64,000 nucleotides of DNA from Haloarchaeobius amylolyticus (lineage in GTDB: Archaea; Halobacteriota; Halobacteria; Halobacteriales; Natrialbaceae). The stretch spans positions 1-64,000 of the forward strand of contig NZ_JANHDH010000003.1 of NCBI RefSeq assembly GCF_026616195.1. The letters are read 5' to 3'. The notes beneath the pieces were generated by a model. The model made no database searches, was not told the DNA's origin, and worked only from the letters and a program-made list of their open reading frames with translations. Both the position numbers and the translations under genes were made by a program. Of this stretch, positions 20,383 through 28,724 are shown one piece after another. Numbering within the stretch: position 1 is the stretch's first letter; every line of letters starts with the position of its first letter.

Positions 20383-21801
20383 TCACCGACCGACCGTGTG
20401 GATGGCCGCGCCCTGGGCGCTCGCGGCCGCCTCCATCACCGCCTCGGTCAGGGTCGGGTGGGTGTGAACCGTTGTCGCGACCTCCGCGAGCGTGGCGCCG
20501 GTCTCGACCGCGAGTGCGAACTCGGCGACCAGTTCGGACGCCTCGGGACAGACCAGTTGTGCACCGACGATGGTACCCGTGGTCCCGTTCGCGACGACCC
20601 GGACGAAGCCGTCGGTCTCGTCGAGGGTGAGCGCCCGGCCGGAGGCGCGCATGGGCATCCGACCGACGACCGGCTCCAGTCCCGCGTCCGCGGCCTCGGC
20701 CTCGGTCAGTCCGACCGTCGCGACCTCCGGGTCGGTGAAGACGGCGGCCGGGATGGCGCGGGTCGACATCGTCTCGTCCTCCCCGGCGATAGCGGCGGCG
20801 GCGACCTCACCCTCCTTGCTGGCTCGATGGGCCAGCATGGGCTCGCCGGCGACGTCACCGACGGCGAATATCGAGTCCGTGCTCGTTCTGGCCTGTTCGT
20901 CGGTCACGACGAACCCGCGCTCGTCGGTCTCGACGCCTGCGGCCGACAGGTCGAGTGTGCCCGTGACCGGCACGCGGCCGACGGCGACGACCACGCGGTC
21001 CGCCTCGTACTGGGCCTGGCCGTCGTCGTCGGACTGAGTCCTCACGCGCACTCCCCCGGTGGTCGGCGTCCACCCATCGGCTCGTTCGCCGAACCGGAAC
21101 GTGACCCCGAGCGATTCGGCTCGCCGCCTGACGACGCGGGCGACGTCGCGTTCGTACCCCGGGAGCACCCCGTCGAGCGCCTCGACGACCGTGACGTCGA
21201 CGCCGAGCTTGGCGAACACCGTCGAGAGCTCCATCCCGATGTAGCCCGCGCCGATGACGACCAGCCGGTCGGGGAGCGAGTCGAGTGCGAGCGCGTGGGT
21301 CGACGAGAGCACCTCCTCGCCGTCGAACGCGAACCCCGGTAGCTCGACCGGGCGCGACCCCGTGGCGACGATGGCGTGCTCGAAGTCGGTCGTCCCGACC
21401 GTCGTTCCCTGTCGGGTGACCCTGACCTGCTGTGTGTCGGTGAACGCGGCGGTCCCGTCGACGAGGGTCACGCCGTTCGCCCGGCAGAGCTTCTCGACAC
21501 CGCCTGTGAGACGGCTCACGACGCCCTCTTTCCAGTCGGTCATCGCCGCGAAGTCCACGTCGACCTCCGCGGTGATGCCCATCTCCTCGGCGGTGGTTGC
21601 CTCGTGGGCCACGTCGGTCGCCGTGATGAGCGCCTTCGAGGGGATGCACCCGACGTTGAGACAGGTGCCGCCGTAGGCGTCCTTCTCCACGAGCGTCACG
21701 TCGAACCCGGCCTGCGCCGCCCGGATCGCCGCGACGTATCCACCGGGGCCTGCACCGATAACCAGTACCTCCGTCTCTCTCGGCAGTGAGTGGTCAGCCA
21801 T
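20383..21801 (-). CDS. lpdA: Dihydrolipoyl dehydrogenase (E3)
   Basis: A 472-residue flavoprotein of normal E3 length. The FAD-binding 'GAGPGG' (16-21) is followed by the redox-active disulfide 'GGTCLNVGCIPSK' (Cys47 and Cys52). The NAD-binding 'GAGYIGMELS' lies near 180, a second FAD contact 'IFAVGDVAG' near 305, and the dimer-interface His-Glu region 'HTHPTLTEAV' near 450. It reoxidises the dihydrolipoyl arm of E2 and reduces NAD+. Its place next to E2, E1 and AcoX genes marks it as the E3 of that complex, although it can also serve other 2-oxoacid complexes or glycine cleavage. It is divergent from the esterase gene, with a likely TATA 'GTATAAGC' (minus strand, about 21843-21850). Confidence 0.95.
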   Translation of the reverse strand: MADHSLPRETEVLVIGAGPGGYVAAIRAAQAGFDVTLVEKDAYGGTCLNVGCIPSKALITATDVAHEATTAEEMGITAEVDVDFAAMTDWKEGVVSRLTGGVEKLCRANGVTLVDGTAAFTDTQQVRVTRQGTTVGTTDFEHAIVATGSRPVELPGFAFDGEEVLSSTHALALDSLPDRLVVIGAGYIGMELSTVFAKLGVDVTVVEALDGVLPGYERDVARVVRRRAESLGVTFRFGERADGWTPTTGGVRVRTQSDDDGQAQYEADRVVVAVGRVPVTGTLDLSAAGVETDERGFVVTDEQARTSTDSIFAVGDVAGEPMLAHRASKEGEVAAAAIAGEDETMSTRAIPAAVFTDPEVATVGLTEAEAADAGLEPVVGRMPMRASGRALTLDETDGFVRVVANGTTGTIVGAQLVCPEASELVAEFALAVETGATLAEVATTVHTHPTLTEAVMEAAASAQGAAIHTVGR

Positions 21802-21907: not shown

Positions 21908-22870
21908 ATGTCATCGACACTTCACCCCCAGGTACAGGAGTACCTCCACGGACTGACGGACGAGGGCCTGCCACCACTGTATCGCCTCTCGCTCGAGGAC
22001 GCTCGCCAGACGTACCGCGACCTCAGCGTGCCGGACGAACCACCGGACGAGGTCGCGTCGGTTCGGGACCGTACGGTCCCGGGCCCCGACGGGGACATAC
22101 CGGTCCGACTCTACCGGCCGGTCGGGGACGACCCTATCGCGCCACTCGTGTTCTGCCACGGCGGCGGCTGGATGCTGGGCGGCCTCGAGACCCACGACGC
22201 CCTCTGCCGGGCGCTCGCGAACGCCACGAACTGTCTGGTCGTCGCCGTCGACTACCGCCTCGCGCCCGAGCACCGGTTCCCCGCCGGTCTCGAGGACTGC
22301 TACGCCGCGACGTGCTGGGTCGCGAACGACGAGGAGACGCTCGACGTCGACGCCGACTCGCTGGTCGTCGCGGGCGACAGTGCCGGGGCGACGCTCGCGA
22401 TGGGGGTCGCGATGCTGGCGCGCGACCGTGACGGCCCGGCCATCGACTACCAGGTCCTCGCCTACCCGGCGACCAACTACGCGTTCGACACGGCGTCGTA
22501 CGAGGAGAACGCACAGGGGTACTTCCTCACCCGGAAGGACATGGAGCGGTTCTGGGACGGGTACCTCCGGAGCGACCTGGACGCCACGCACGCCTACGCC
22601 TCGCCACACCGGGCGGAGAGCATGGCGGACCTCCCGCCGTCGCTGGTGGTGACCTGTGGGTTCGACCCGCTCCGCGACGACGGGCGCGCGCTCGCCGACC
22701 GGCTGTCGGACGCCGGTGTCCCGACGAAGCACGTCGAGTACGAGGACATGATCCACGGCTTCCTGACGATGCTCTCGGACCCGGACCTGGACCGCGCCCG
22801 CGAGGCAATCGAGGAGATCGGTGAGACGGTCCAGCACGAGGTGCGACAGGCGGCGCAGGTACCGCAATGA
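21908..22870 (+). CDS. Alpha/beta-hydrolase, hormone-sensitive-lipase (HSL) esterase family
   Basis: A 320-residue esterase. It has the HSL oxyanion motif HGGGW (84-88), nucleophile Ser158 in GDSAG (156-160), and the other triad candidates Asp253 ('CGFDPLRDDG') and His283 ('MIHGFLTM'). 'DYRLAPEHRFPA' near 115-126 is another HSL-family mark. No signal peptide, so it acts in the cytoplasm on short-chain esters. It sits between the E3 and E2 genes of the acetoin/2-oxoacid dehydrogenase locus. Hydrolysis of an ester or lactone that feeds that pathway is possible but is only inferred from location. Confidence 0.88.
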   Translation: MSSTLHPQVQEYLHGLTDEGLPPLYRLSLEDARQTYRDLSVPDEPPDEVASVRDRTVPGPDGDIPVRLYRPVGDDPIAPLVFCHGGGWMLGGLETHDALCRALANATNCLVVAVDYRLAPEHRFPAGLEDCYAATCWVANDEETLDVDADSLVVAGDSAGATLAMGVAMLARDRDGPAIDYQVLAYPATNYAFDTASYEENAQGYFLTRKDMERFWDGYLRSDLDATHAYASPHRAESMADLPPSLVVTCGFDPLRDDGRALADRLSDAGVPTKHVEYEDMIHGFLTMLSDPDLDRAREAIEEIGETVQHEVRQAAQVPQ

Positions 22871-23052: not shown

Positions 23053-24411
23053 ATGGCAATTATTGTCAAGATGCCAAAACTGGGGCTCGAGATGGAGCAG
23101 GGGACCGTGCTCGAGTGGTTCGTCGACCCCGGCCAACCGGTGTCGGAAGGCGACGTGATAGCCGAGGTCGAATCCGAGAAGAGCATCGGCGAGGTCGAAG
23201 CCCGCGAGGACGGCGAACTCCGCCGCATCTACCTCGAGGAGGGCGAGTCCATCCCACCGGGGAAACCCATCGGCATCCTCGCGAACGGGGACGCCGACAT
23301 CGCCGACCTCGAGGCCGAGGTCGAATCGGAACTCGGCGGCGCGGCCGACACCGGCCAGGAGAGCTCCAGCGACGAGGCAGCGACCGGTGAGACCGGGACG
23401 GCAAGCGGCGATTCCGGTACAGCACAGACCGCGACTGCTGGGGCCGCACCCGACGGGGCGTCGGCAGCGGTGAAGGCCTCGCCCCGGGCCAAGAAGCGAG
23501 CCGAGGAGCTATCGGTCGACCTCTCGACGGTCGAGGGGACCGGCCCGATGGATTCGGTGACGGAGGCTGACGTCGAGGCCGCCGCAGAGAGCGGTACCAC
23601 GGCCGAGAGCGACTCCGCCGCCGAGGAGGTCAAGGCATCCCCCCGTGCGAAGAAACGCGCCGAGGAACTCGGTGTCGACCTCACGACGGTCGAGGGGACC
23701 GGCCCGATGGATTCGGTGACCGAGGACGACGTCGAGGCCGCCGCGGAGGCTGGGTCGGGCGCCGAACCGGTGGCGGCCCAGCGGGTCGACACCGGCGGAG
23801 TTGCGACGTCCCGGTTCCAGCAGGTCACCGAGGTGGCAGCCCCCGACGCCGGTGAGGCACTGCTGGAGACGACCGAGGCGGTCCGTGCAGCCTTCGAGGA
23901 CCGGGTGACGACCACCGACCTGTTGCTCGTCGTCGCCTCGGCGGCGCTTGCCGACACGCCGGTCGTGAACGGGACCTACGGCGAGTCCACCCACCAGGTC
24001 GTCGCCGACCACGACATCGCGCTCGTGACCGAGGCCGACGGGGAACTCACCACGGGCGTGATTCCGGCGGTCGACGAGAAGTCGCTCACCCAGCTCGTCG
24101 AGGCGCGCGAGGGCCTCGTGGGCGACGAGGACGAACGGCCGTCGTTCACGCTGGCCGAGCCGGCAGGCGACGACGCCGAGGGACTGCTCGTCAACCGGCC
24201 CGCCGTCGCCGCGCTGGAGGTCGACCTCTCCGGACAGCGGGCCGTGCCCGGTGACGACGGCGTCGACCTCCGGCCACTCGTCACCGCGACCCTGACCTAC
24301 GACACGCGTGCCATCGGCCGGTCCGAGGCGACCGCGTTCCTGGACAGTTTCTTCGAGCGAGCAGCCGAGTCGTCGACGCTGGTGCTGGATTCGTACCGCG
24401 GCACGGAGTAA
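23053..24411 (+). CDS. 2-oxoacid/acetoin dehydrogenase E2-like protein with duplicated E3-binding domain and altered active site
   Basis: A 452-residue protein. Residues 1-80 are a lipoyl domain with the modified Lys43 in 'VESEKSIGEVEA'. Two near-identical peripheral-subunit-binding domains follow at about 140-181 and 193-234, each starting 'VKASPRAKKRAEEL' and containing 'TVEGTGPMDSVTE'. The remaining about 200 residues align with the E2 acyltransferase core from 'TTTDLLLVVASAAL' and 'SFTLAEPAGDD' onward, but the core's first part is much shortened. The catalytic motif DHRVIDG reads DTRAIGR (417-423), so the active-site His and Asp are both absent. It probably still carries lipoyl groups and binds E1/E3, but acyl transfer by the usual mechanism looks doubtful. 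The start at 23053 begins the lipoyl strand and suits the TATA spacing. Confidence 0.88.
   Translation: MAIIVKMPKLGLEMEQGTVLEWFVDPGQPVSEGDVIAEVESEKSIGEVEAREDGELRRIYLEEGESIPPGKPIGILANGDADIADLEAEVESELGGAADTGQESSSDEAATGETGTASGDSGTAQTATAGAAPDGASAAVKASPRAKKRAEELSVDLSTVEGTGPMDSVTEADVEAAAESGTTAESDSAAEEVKASPRAKKRAEELGVDLTTVEGTGPMDSVTEDDVEAAAEAGSGAEPVAAQRVDTGGVATSRFQQVTEVAAPDAGEALLETTEAVRAAFEDRVTTTDLLLVVASAALADTPVVNGTYGESTHQVVADHDIALVTEADGELTTGVIPAVDEKSLTQLVEAREGLVGDEDERPSFTLAEPAGDDAEGLLVNRPAVAALEVDLSGQRAVPGDDGVDLRPLVTATLTYDTRAIGRSEATAFLDSFFERAAESSTLVLDSYRGTE
23470..23749 (+). repeat. In-gene duplication encoding two E3-binding domains
   Basis: Two in-frame copies offset by 159 nt (53 codons). A 37-nt block is identical in both (23525-23561 and 23684-23720), while other positions differ mostly at third bases. 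This suggests a fairly recent duplication or gene conversion. Confidence 0.8.
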
Positions 24412-24598: not shown

Positions 24599-25615
24599 CT
24601 ACTCGGTGGCAGCCGCCCCGTGCCGGAGCATCATCCCGTCGTCCGGCGCGGCGCGAAGCGTCGCGTCCACGTCGACGAGCCGGGGCCCGTCGGCGCTGAG
24701 CGTCATCGAGACGGTCGCGTCGGTGAGTTCGAGTTCGCGCTCGCCGTCGGCGCCGACGACGCCGTCGGTCACCTGGAACGTCGCCGTCTCGCCCCAGTCG
24801 AGCGTGTCGTACTCGGCGATGCCGACGGTATCGGTCATCCCCGGGGCGAGGATCGCCCGCACCGACCGCGGGGTCTCCTCGGGGGCACCGAGTGTCAGTG
24901 CGATGCCGCCGGGGGCGTCCGGCGCCAGCGGCTCGATACAGCCCGCGGCGCTGGTGAGGCCGATCTCGGCCGGGTGGGCCCGCGAGACGACGCCGCCGAG
25001 CAGCTCCGACGGGTCGATGACCGCCCGGGTCCCGACGAACGGCCTGTCGGTGATACCGATGGCTGCCAGCCCCGTCAGGGACTTCTCGCCGGAGACGTCG
25101 TCGGCGTGGACGTCGATACGACCGTGTCTGTAGGTCGCGGTGTCGGCGTCGACCATGCCGTCCGCGATGACGGCGGCCGCCGCGCCCGCGACGGTCCCGT
25201 CCACCGGTGTCGGCACGACGTTGTTCGTCCCCGTCGAGACCGACAACAGGGGGACGTCACCGACTTCGAGCGCGGCGTCGCGGGTGGTACCGTCGCCGCC
25301 CAGCACGACGACCGCGTCCGCCGTCTCGCGGAAGCGTTCGGCCGCTCTGCGCGTGTCCGCAGCCGTCTCGTGGATGGGCATCTCCACCAGCTCGACGTCC
25401 ATCTCCGGCGGTGCCGCCTCGACGGCGTGGGTGGCGATGTCCACCCGGTCTGGCATGACCGCCACGCTGGGTGTCTCGTCGACCAGGGTCAGGCCGTGCA
25501 GGACGCACTCGGCGACGCGGCGTTTCGCGTAGTTGTCCACGATGCTCGCGCCGCCCGTGAGCCGACGGATGTCACGGCCTGCCGACGGGTTGACGATGAG
25601 TCCAACGTGGGCCAT
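24599..25615 (-). CDS. acoX: ATP-NAD/AcoX-family kinase-like protein
   Basis: A 338-residue protein of the ATP-NAD kinase/AcoX group. It opens 'MAHVGLIVNPSAGRD', has the diagnostic GGDGT at 106-110 ('VVLGGDGTTRDAA') and 'SVSTGTNN' about 20 residues later, where NAD kinases have their substrate loop. AcoX proteins are encoded in acetoin dehydrogenase operons. Their exact reaction is not settled. The gene follows E1beta by 4 nt on the same strand, and this linkage is the main reason to call the whole locus acetoin-type. The start at 25615 begins the Rossmann strand. The upstream frame is a shadow of E1beta. Confidence 0.85.
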   Translation of the reverse strand: MAHVGLIVNPSAGRDIRRLTGGASIVDNYAKRRVAECVLHGLTLVDETPSVAVMPDRVDIATHAVEAAPPEMDVELVEMPIHETAADTRRAAERFRETADAVVVLGGDGTTRDAALEVGDVPLLSVSTGTNNVVPTPVDGTVAGAAAAVIADGMVDADTATYRHGRIDVHADDVSGEKSLTGLAAIGITDRPFVGTRAVIDPSELLGGVVSRAHPAEIGLTSAAGCIEPLAPDAPGGIALTLGAPEETPRSVRAILAPGMTDTVGIAEYDTLDWGETATFQVTDGVVGADGERELELTDATVSMTLSADGPRLVDVDATLRAAPDDGMMLRHGAAATE

Positions 25616-25619
25616 CGCT

Positions 25620-26633
25620 TCACGTGATCCGCCGGATGGCAGCCTCGACCTCGTCGCCGTCCGGGAGCACCTCCTGCTCCAGTGGCGGGCTGAACGGGAT
25701 GTGGGTGTCCGGCGTGCCGACGCGCTGGATGGGCGCGTCGAGGCTGAAGAACGCCTCCTCCTGGGCACGTGCGATGACCTCGGCGTGGACGCCGTACGAG
25801 AGCGGGCTCTCGTCCGCGACCACCATCCGGCCGGTCTTCCGGAGACTCTCGACGATGGTCTCGGTGTCCAGCGGATAGAGCGAGCGTGGGTCGATGACCT
25901 CGACGCTCACGTCACCGGCCAGGTTCTCCGCGACGTCGAGCGACTCGCCGACCATGCGCTGGGTCGCGACCACGGTGACGTCGGCGCCCTCGCGCTCGAC
26001 GGCCGCCTCGCCGATGGGGATGGTGAAGTCCGGGTCGGTCGGCACCTCGCCCTTCTGCTCGTATATCATCTTGTTCTCGAAGACGAACACGGGGTCGTCC
26101 GACCGGATGGCCGCCTTGGTCAGGCCCTTCGCGGCCGCGGCGGTGCCCGGCGCGACCGCCTTCAGGCCGGGGAACTGCGCGATCCAGGCGTGGACCGTCC
26201 CGGAGTGCTGGCTGGCGGCGCCCATGCCACCGCCCTCGGTGGTGCGGACGGTGACGGGCATCTCCGTCTTGCCGCCGAACATGTAGCGCATCTTCGCCAT
26301 CTGGTTCATGATCTGCTCCATCGAGACGCCCATGAAGTCAGAGAACATGATCTCGACGACGGGGCGCGTCCCGGTCGCGGCCGCGCCGGTCGCGGCGCCC
26401 GTGAACCCGGCCTCGGCGATGGGCGTGTCGCGGATGCGTTCCTCGCCGAACTCCTCGATGAGGTCACCGGTGACCTCGAGGACGCCGCCGAAGTCGCCGA
26501 CGTCCTCGCCCATCACGAACACGTCCTCGTCGCGGCGCAGTTCCTCACGGAGTGCGAGTCGGATAGATTCGCGAACCGTCAACCGCTCGGTCTCCATGCC
26601 GTCGAGTTCGGCCGCGGCGGTCTGGGCGCTCAT
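25620..26633 (-). CDS. acoB: Acetoin/2-oxoacid dehydrogenase E1 component, beta subunit
   Basis: A 337-residue transketolase-like E1beta. Conserved parts are 'VFVMGEDVGDFGGVLEVT', 'RIRDTPIAEAGFTGAATGAA', 'EIMFSDFMGVSMEQIMNQ' and 'TTEGGGMGAASQHSGT', followed by the C-terminal domain 'VEVIDPRSLYPLD'. With E1alpha it forms the alpha2beta2 thiamin-diphosphate enzyme that decarboxylates or cleaves the substrate and acylates the lipoyl arm. It starts 4 nt inside the E1alpha stop (ATGA-type overlap), so the two are translationally coupled. The 'GDFGG' and 'FMGVSMEQIMNQ' forms resemble acetoin-type E1beta, but substrate choice (acetoin, pyruvate, branched 2-oxoacid) cannot be proven from sequence. 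Confidence 0.9.
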   Translation of the reverse strand: MSAQTAAAELDGMETERLTVRESIRLALREELRRDEDVFVMGEDVGDFGGVLEVTGDLIEEFGEERIRDTPIAEAGFTGAATGAAATGTRPVVEIMFSDFMGVSMEQIMNQMAKMRYMFGGKTEMPVTVRTTEGGGMGAASQHSGTVHAWIAQFPGLKAVAPGTAAAAKGLTKAAIRSDDPVFVFENKMIYEQKGEVPTDPDFTIPIGEAAVEREGADVTVVATQRMVGESLDVAENLAGDVSVEVIDPRSLYPLDTETIVESLRKTGRMVVADESPLSYGVHAEVIARAQEEAFFSLDAPIQRVGTPDTHIPFSPPLEQEVLPDGDEVEAAIRRIT

Positions 26634-27813: not shown

Positions 27814-28581
27814 TCACGAGTACTCGTGGTTCCCCCGGATGATGTCCGCGTACTCCTGGACGACGGCGGGGTACTCCTCGAAGAACACCTCGTCCTCGAG
27901 TCGGTTCGGCGGCCCGTACAGTGCGATGCCGGCGAGGACGTCGTCGGACCGGCTCGTGATCGGCACGCCGATGCCCCGCATCCCGTCGAAGCACTCCTCG
28001 TCGTCGAACGCGTACCCGCGCTGTCGGACCTGGTCGATGTCGTCGAGGAGTGCCTCGACGTCGGTCAGCGTGTTCTGTGTCTTCGGGTGGAGGCCGTACT
28101 GCTCGACGATGTCCCGGATCTTCGCGTCGGGGAGCTGGGACAGTATCGCCTTCCCGTAGGCCGTCGTGTGGAGCCGGGACTTGACGCCCGGGTAGGTCCG
28201 GCTGACCTGCAGTCGCTTCACCTTCTCGCCCTTCTTCATCGAGAGCAACACACCGAGGTCGTTCTCCTCGATCATCAGCCCCGCGAACTCGCCGGTCTCC
28301 TCGGCCAGCCGTCGGAGTTCGGGTTCCGCCGTCGAGTAGATGTCGTGGTTCCGCCGGACGCGGTTGCCGACCTCGAGGAACGACGAACTCACGCGGTAGC
28401 GGCCGTCCGGCTGCTTCGTGATGTAGTTGATCGTCTCGAGGGTGTTGACGTACTCGTACATCGTGCTCAGGGGCATATCGAACTCAGCCGCGAGTTCGCT
28501 GACCGTGGCCGCCTGCATCTCGACGAGTCTCTCGATGACCCGGTTCGCGCGAACGAGCGACTTGAGCGGCTTCGAAGGCAT
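27814..28581 (-). CDS. IclR-family transcriptional regulator
   Basis: A 255-residue protein of normal IclR length. The N-terminal winged helix (about 5-65) includes 'ATVSELAAEFDMPLSTMYEYVNTLE'. The effector domain (about 80-250) has 'RLHTTAYGKAILSQLPD' and 'GIGVPITSRSDDVLAGIALYGP', the usual ligand-pocket stretches. IclR proteins sense small carboxylic or aromatic metabolites. It lies upstream of the acetoin-type E1 genes on the same strand (138 nt apart) and is the likely controller of that locus. The start at 28581 gives the family N-terminus. Three matching 19-bp palindromes lie in its upstream region, the nearest abutting a TATA-like ACAATTATGA (minus strand, 28605-28614), which points to autoregulation. 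Confidence 0.9.
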   Translation of the reverse strand: MPSKPLKSLVRANRVIERLVEMQAATVSELAAEFDMPLSTMYEYVNTLETINYITKQPDGRYRVSSSFLEVGNRVRRNHDIYSTAEPELRRLAEETGEFAGLMIEENDLGVLLSMKKGEKVKRLQVSRTYPGVKSRLHTTAYGKAILSQLPDAKIRDIVEQYGLHPKTQNTLTDVEALLDDIDQVRQRGYAFDDEECFDGMRGIGVPITSRSDDVLAGIALYGPPNRLEDEVFFEEYPAVVQEYADIIRGNHEYS

Positions 28582-28612
28582 ATCATGACACACCAGCGCA
28601 ACCATCATAATT

Positions 28613-28631
28613 GTTCTGGATATATCGGAAC
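28613..28631. promoter_or_regulatory. IclR operator candidate, copy 1
   Basis: GTTCTGGATATATCGGAAC, 16 of 19 bases as in copy 3, with 5- to 7-bp inverted arms. It touches the upstream edge of the presumed iclR TATA element, about 32 nt from the start codon. Confidence 0.6.
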
Positions 28632-28705
28632 GAGCGTCGGAGAGGCCCGATTTCGGTCGGTTCGTGCCTACCGGGGACCGGTGGTCCGGGCTCGCCATCG
28701 CCACC

Positions 28706-28724
28706 GTTTCGAAATACTCGGAGC
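28706..28724. promoter_or_regulatory. IclR operator candidate, copy 2
   Basis: GTTTCGAAATACTCGGAGC, the weakest of the three (14 of 19 bases as in copy 3). Its centre is 93 bp from that of copy 1. Confidence 0.5.

Follow-up and report, generated by a model that had tools for sequence, protein, structure and literature searches.

Described systems closest to the locus

E2 cores normally serve as scaffold and acyltransferase at once. In the bacterial acetoin dehydrogenase, the third component, AcoC (NF011457/PRK14875), is encoded in an acoX-E1 alpha-E1 beta context, and the lipoyl arm is served by an alpha/beta hydrolase and not by an E2 core; AcoC is a single chain with an Abhydrolase_1 domain and, by Pfam, has neither a subunit-binding domain nor an E2 core. 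In the mitochondrial PDH complex, E3BP (PDHX, protein X) consists of a lipoyl domain, a subunit-binding domain, and an E2-like core that lacks the catalytic His, and it partners an active E2 within the same complex. ABHD11, an alpha/beta hydrolase of human mitochondria, is a glutaryl-lipoyl thioesterase (PMC12643935), acting as a repair enzyme on the acylated lipoyl group of a 2-oxoacid dehydrogenase complex with a working E2. Of the haloarchaeal 2-oxoacid dehydrogenase complexes, no substrate is firmly known except for an indirect isoleucine link (PMC8305020).

The window (the whole stretch of 64,000 nucleotides that was analyzed) carries a locus in which an E2-like protein without the catalytic His is encoded beside an alpha/beta hydrolase of the hormone-sensitive lipase (HSL) type. 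The reading preferred here, which is given a probability of roughly 0.6, is that the E2-like protein would act as a lipoyl carrier and scaffold, with the adjoining hydrolase deacylating the acyl-dihydrolipoyl group in trans. The features of the locus are as follows.

20383..21801, minus strand: dihydrolipoyl dehydrogenase (E3), in divergent orientation to the hydrolase gene; TIGR01350, 521 bits (cut-off, 409)
21908..22870, plus strand: HSL/LipP1-type alpha/beta hydrolase; NCBIfam LipP1 (NF058653), 432 bits (cut-off, 350); PF07859
23053..24411, plus strand: E2-like protein, a single open frame of 452 aa with a lipoyl domain, two subunit-binding domains, and a degenerate acyltransferase core
23065..23277, plus strand: lipoyl domain (aa 5-75); Pfam PF00364 Biotin_lipoyl, 1.9e-17; PF00364 match at the same coordinates in a search of the genome itself; alignment
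23476..23583, plus strand: first subunit-binding domain (about aa 142-177); PF02817; alignment
23629..23736, plus strand: second subunit-binding domain (aa 193-228); PF02817, best stretch
23809..24408, plus strand: degenerate acyltransferase core; PF00198; first helix absent, active-site Thr changed to Ala, DHRxxDG changed to DTRAIGR
24599..25615, minus strand: AcoX (NAD-kinase-like), convergent to the E2-like gene; PF01513; 34% identity with the AcoX proteins of bacterial aco operons
25620..26633, minus strand: E1 beta; PF02779/PF02780
26630..27676, minus strand: E1 alpha; PF00676; overlaps E1 beta by 4 bases
27814..28710, minus strand: IclR-type regulator upstream of E1 alpha; PF01614

Gene order and probable substrate

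The E1 alpha, E1 beta, and AcoX genes form a tight operon (27676-24599, minus strand), with a spacing of 4 bases between E1 beta and AcoX, and provide the acoX-E1 alpha-E1 beta context in which AcoC is found. The E2-like gene is convergent to this operon and lies downstream of the hydrolase gene on the same strand. The E3 gene, located beyond the hydrolase, was found in only some of the related loci (group A, described below). The window E1 alpha is 48-49% identical to bacterial AcoA, compared with 31% to the PDH E1 alpha of the same genome. In L038, L039, and L040, a Zn-alcohol dehydrogenase gene adjoins the cassette, and in L038 and L039 an SDR gene sits between the hydrolase and E2 genes (coordinates of this observation in L038, 2864-3937 and 8851-9660); these genes fit acetoin/butanediol catabolism. 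Given the AcoX context, the closeness of E1 alpha to AcoA, and the presence in some loci of genes for a Zn-alcohol dehydrogenase and an SDR, the substrate of the complex is probably acetoin-like.

Architecture and lesion of the E2-like protein

The E2-like protein retains the lipoyl domain, with K43 in the motif ESEKS as the predicted lipoyl-lysine, which is invariant across group A. The earlier note on this DNA had described two near-identical subunit-binding domains in tandem, and E3_binding (PF02817) was indeed matched in two stretches (1.9e-26). The note had also read the DHRVIDG-type motif as DTRAIGR without the catalytic His and the acyltransferase core as shortened at its front, and both readings hold. 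The active-site motif is D417-T-R-A-I-G-R423, encoded at 24301-24321, in which the His and the second Asp of DHRxxDG are gone and the Asp preceding the His (D417) is kept. The 2-oxoacid_dh (PF00198) match covers aa 269-435 (7e-13) and begins at profile position 40 of 232, so that about 40 positions (1-39) are missing from the front of the core. The protein thus has the lipoyl-lysine and the peripheral subunit-binding domain (two copies) of an E2 and no catalytic DHRxxDG in a complete core. An AlphaFold model of the core, made from an alignment of the window protein and one bacterial E2, has a pLDDT of 39.

In the Escherichia coli E2o, the single substitutions H375A and D379A leave 2.1% and 9.5% of the activity, respectively (PMC5986005). 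With several lesions combined here, the E2 core is likely to be inactive. The motif had been called destroyed; in view of the activities that the E2o mutants retain, "severely impaired, probably inactive" is the better wording. In addition, the lipoyl domain of E. coli E2p binds in a cleft flanked by the first core helix (PMC9681731), so without this helix the core may have lost its docking site for the lipoyl domain in addition to its chemistry.

Conservation of the lesion among haloarchaea

Relatives were gathered from family-wide and order-wide genome searches and from annotated plasmids; a scan of genome contigs found only two distant relatives. Two groups of E2-like genes were recognized beside E1 alpha-E1 beta-AcoX. 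Group A, which includes the window, comprises 22 distinct haloarchaeal loci with at least six family codes, among them those of Natrinema gelatinilyticum (G054, NZ_CP100757), Haladaptatus halobius, and Halocatena marina. Group B comprises 31 sister E2s with DHRVVDG, DHRIVDG, or a similar motif. The catalytic His is present in 0/22 group A proteins versus 31/31 of group B, its place being taken in group A by Thr (15 proteins), Ala (4), Ser (2), or Pro (1). The second Asp of the motif is retained in 6 of the 22, the active-site Thr/Ser is changed to Ala in 17 of the 22, and the first core helix is missing from every group A sequence printed in the alignment. Both the loss of residues and its conservation are direct observations.

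An alignment of the haloarchaeal acoX-linked E2-like proteins had been proposed earlier as a check, and in it the lesion extends to 22 loci and no catalytic His appears elsewhere in the core. H314, the only core His conserved in group A, was rejected as a relocated catalytic residue because every one of the 31 intact sisters has it too. Neither chance nor a sequencing error accounts for the lesion, which is common to 22 loci and shows four different His replacements. Two binding domains do not mark inactivated cores, because sister E2s with an intact motif have tandem copies too. Compared with canonical E2s, including the sister haloarchaeal E2s that carry an OsmC domain (E2-OsmC), the window protein has the same domain order and a homologous core, and it shares the two binding domains with the sisters; unlike them, it has lost the catalytic His, lacks the OsmC domain, and has an HSL hydrolase alongside.

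The pairwise dN/dS of the group A core ranges from 0.17 to 0.53, being below 1 in every pair and above the lipoyl and E1 values in most pairs, which means that the core is kept under purifying selection with relaxed constraint. There is only a slim chance that the core is a functionless, decaying remnant and that the lipoyl and binding domains alone matter. The faster evolution of the core relative to the lipoyl domain or E1 would fit such decay, as would the copy in G023 with a frame break between the lipoyl domain and the remainder, but the dN/dS of the core, which stays far below 1 in each pair, and the invariance of the C-terminal tail and some core residues across species argue against it. 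In the G023 copy (L044, 7052-8562), the group A E2 is split across two frames after the lipoyl domain, which could be a genuine frameshift or an artefact of the assembly.

Having E2 topology without the catalytic His (the criterion of PMC10156792), the window protein also resembles E3BP/PDHX, although its core has lost the first helix as well and it has two binding domains. This resemblance raises the question of a mixed core, in which the His-less subunit would be accompanied by another cellular E2 that performs the acyl transfer. Animal E3BP, an inactive E2 paralogue without the catalytic His (PMC10156792), is a precedent, and the genome encodes an intact PDH-type E2 (DHRLVDG). However, E3BP partners an active E2, whereas the window locus encodes none, and the only other PF00198 protein of G005 is the PDH-type E2. 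In addition, bovine cores are reported not to co-assemble across complexes (PMC9681731), and a mixed core would leave the hydrolase linkage and the fusions described below unexplained. This arrangement is therefore considered highly improbable.

Linkage of the HSL-type hydrolase to the His-less E2s

The hydrolase frame is open from 21824, and its homologues begin at MSSTLHPQ. The triad S186-D281-H311 and the HGGG motif are present (348-aa numbering), in agreement with its LipP1 hormone-sensitive lipase membership, and in a census of the triad the Ser, Asp, His, and HGGG were intact in 22/22 cluster hydrolases. A hydrolase more than 50% identical to that of the window and within about 5.5 kb lies beside the E2 in 22/22 group A loci versus 0/30 intact AcoX-linked group B loci (30 group B loci were counted). 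The one-tailed value of 2e-15 overstates the independence of these counts, since the loci are related and 22/22 does not stand for 22 independent events. In the family-wide hydrolase search, the nine group A genomes came top with 68-100% identity, followed by matches of 56% at unlinked places; in the order-wide search, the top 20 genomes were those of group A, and the next set included G223 and G241. This strict linkage, a direct observation, supports the suggestion of the earlier note that another enzyme releases the acyl group, and the comparative evidence adds a candidate that the note did not name, the linked hydrolase at 21908-22870.

The same counts bear on a role in repair, in which the hydrolase would clear wrong or stalled lipoyl adducts and residual activity of the core would transfer the acyl group to CoA. 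ABHD11, which is associated with OGDHc, clears glutaryl adducts from lipoyl (PMC12643935, PMC7426941), and the activities kept by E2o H375A and D379A (PMC5986005) leave some room for such transfer. A repair enzyme would be expected beside intact E2s too, yet it is found in 0/30, and since the loss of the His and of the first helix is mostly compounded by loss of the Asp and of the Thr, any residual activity should be very low. Repair is thus an unlikely explanation.

Natural fusions of lipoyl domain and hydrolase

In G170, a gap-free frame encodes a protein of 503 aa with a lipoyl domain and a single E3_binding domain in its N-terminal part and the HSL-type (Abhydrolase_3) hydrolase as its C-terminal part, and this genome also carries a separate His-less E2. 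G241, which has a different family code from G170, encodes the same lipoyl-E3_binding-Abhydrolase_3 fusion, also gap-free, upstream of E1 alpha. G223 carries a probable fusion, with a run of N in its linker; a His-less E2 (His changed to Pro) is also present. In the acoX operons of Paraburkholderia and Chelatococcus, AcoC consists of a lipoyl domain and Abhydrolase_1 without an E2 core (Pfam). The haloarchaeal fusions of G170 and G241, which were observed directly, repeat this layout with another hydrolase family; together with bacterial AcoC, they therefore show that the layout of lipoyl arm plus alpha/beta hydrolase exists with two hydrolase families. The window system differs from AcoC in that it retains the impaired E2 core and encodes its hydrolase, of the Abhydrolase_3 (HSL) family, as a protein of its own. 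The window protein is not an AcoC by NF011457 (72.7 bits against a cut-off of 307), the two fusions that were scored likewise fall under this cut-off, and the one-chain form occurs only in G170, in G241, and probably in G223. In a solved alpha/beta hydrolase, PDB 7qjm_A (entry name '202'), residues 32-80 show similarity to the second subunit-binding domain (E, 3.4e-4), and this protein is perhaps another binding domain-hydrolase fusion.

Catabolic clusters often contain carboxylesterases. The LipP1/HSL family consists of carboxylesterases, and the hydrolase might accordingly free the substrate of the complex from an ester without any relation to the lipoyl arm. This is very unlikely, as the hydrolase occurs fused to lipoyl and subunit-binding domains and is strictly absent beside intact E2s.

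In the phylogenetic analyses, the cluster hydrolases formed a single clade (99) distinct from other HSLs; residues marking this clade concentrate in the N-terminal part (positions 33-64). The group A E2s also form one clade (100). One loss is counted by the E2 and hydrolase trees and two by the E1/AcoX tree, while the single-gene trees of E1 alpha, E1 beta, and AcoX disagree (2-4 changes). The catalytic residues were thus lost once or twice; the two changes demanded by the E1/AcoX tree could reflect a second loss or a lateral replacement.

Proposed mechanism and significance

A lipoyl carrier or scaffold with acyl release elsewhere, or with a non-CoA product, had been proposed for this protein, and the linkage of 22/22 versus 0/30 and the fusions support this proposal. 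Under the preferred reading of a carrier with a linked hydrolase, the complex would be of the acetoin/2-oxoacid dehydrogenase type, with its E2 turned into a pseudo-acyltransferase. E1 would load the acyl group onto the lipoyl arm by standard chemistry. The E2-like protein would hold this arm and the two docking domains for E1/E3, possibly still forming the core scaffold. The HSL-type hydrolase would then strip the acyl group from acyl-dihydrolipoyl by means of its Ser-Asp-His triad, with CoA or water as the presumed acceptor, and E3 would reoxidize the arm. We infer the deacylation step, its substrate, and its product. Lipoyl deacylation chemistry has a precedent, since ABHD11 strips glutaryl from lipoyl; ABHD11 is likened here by function and not by sequence. 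Counting against the carrier and hydrolase model, the known members of the HSL family are for the most part carboxylesterases, D417 is retained, and a normal E2 with a single substitution keeps a few percent of its activity. The more specific idea of a CoA-independent complex, in which the HSL-type esterase would free an acid instead of acyl-CoA and the former E2 would be only a carrier and scaffold, is tentative and rather doubtful.

The scaffold and acyltransferase jobs appear to be divided between proteins here, with the chemistry passed to an unrelated fold. The AcoC family in bacteria and HSL in haloarchaea appear to have been separately recruited to the lipoyl arm, and this separate recruitment offers a direct test of the alpha/beta hydrolase role in such complexes. 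A defined cassette of five genes offers a practical starting point, because haloarchaeal complexes have long been without known substrates (PMC8305020).

OsmC-bearing sisters and split E2s

Most group B E2s end in a C-terminal OsmC domain (PF02566), which the window protein lacks, and among the OsmC E2s of L046, L048, L049, L166, and L178-L197, those inspected retain both Cys. OsmC/Ohr peroxidases are known to draw reducing power from lipoylated proteins, so the E2-OsmC sisters might link the complex to the removal of peroxide. In L065 (6713-7654), L053 (6748-7563), and L054 (6564-7355), E2 catalytic cores that have no lipoyl or subunit-binding domain adjoin E1 alpha/E1 beta. The E2 of L065 is split, with a separate lipoyl-domain frame just upstream of the core; an E1 beta-lipoyl fusion is not supported there, since the Pfam search of this frame yielded the lipoyl domain and nothing else. 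Short haloarchaeal proteins made up of lipoyl and OsmC domains only, without an E2 core, are encoded in L055, L060, L061, L063, and L064.
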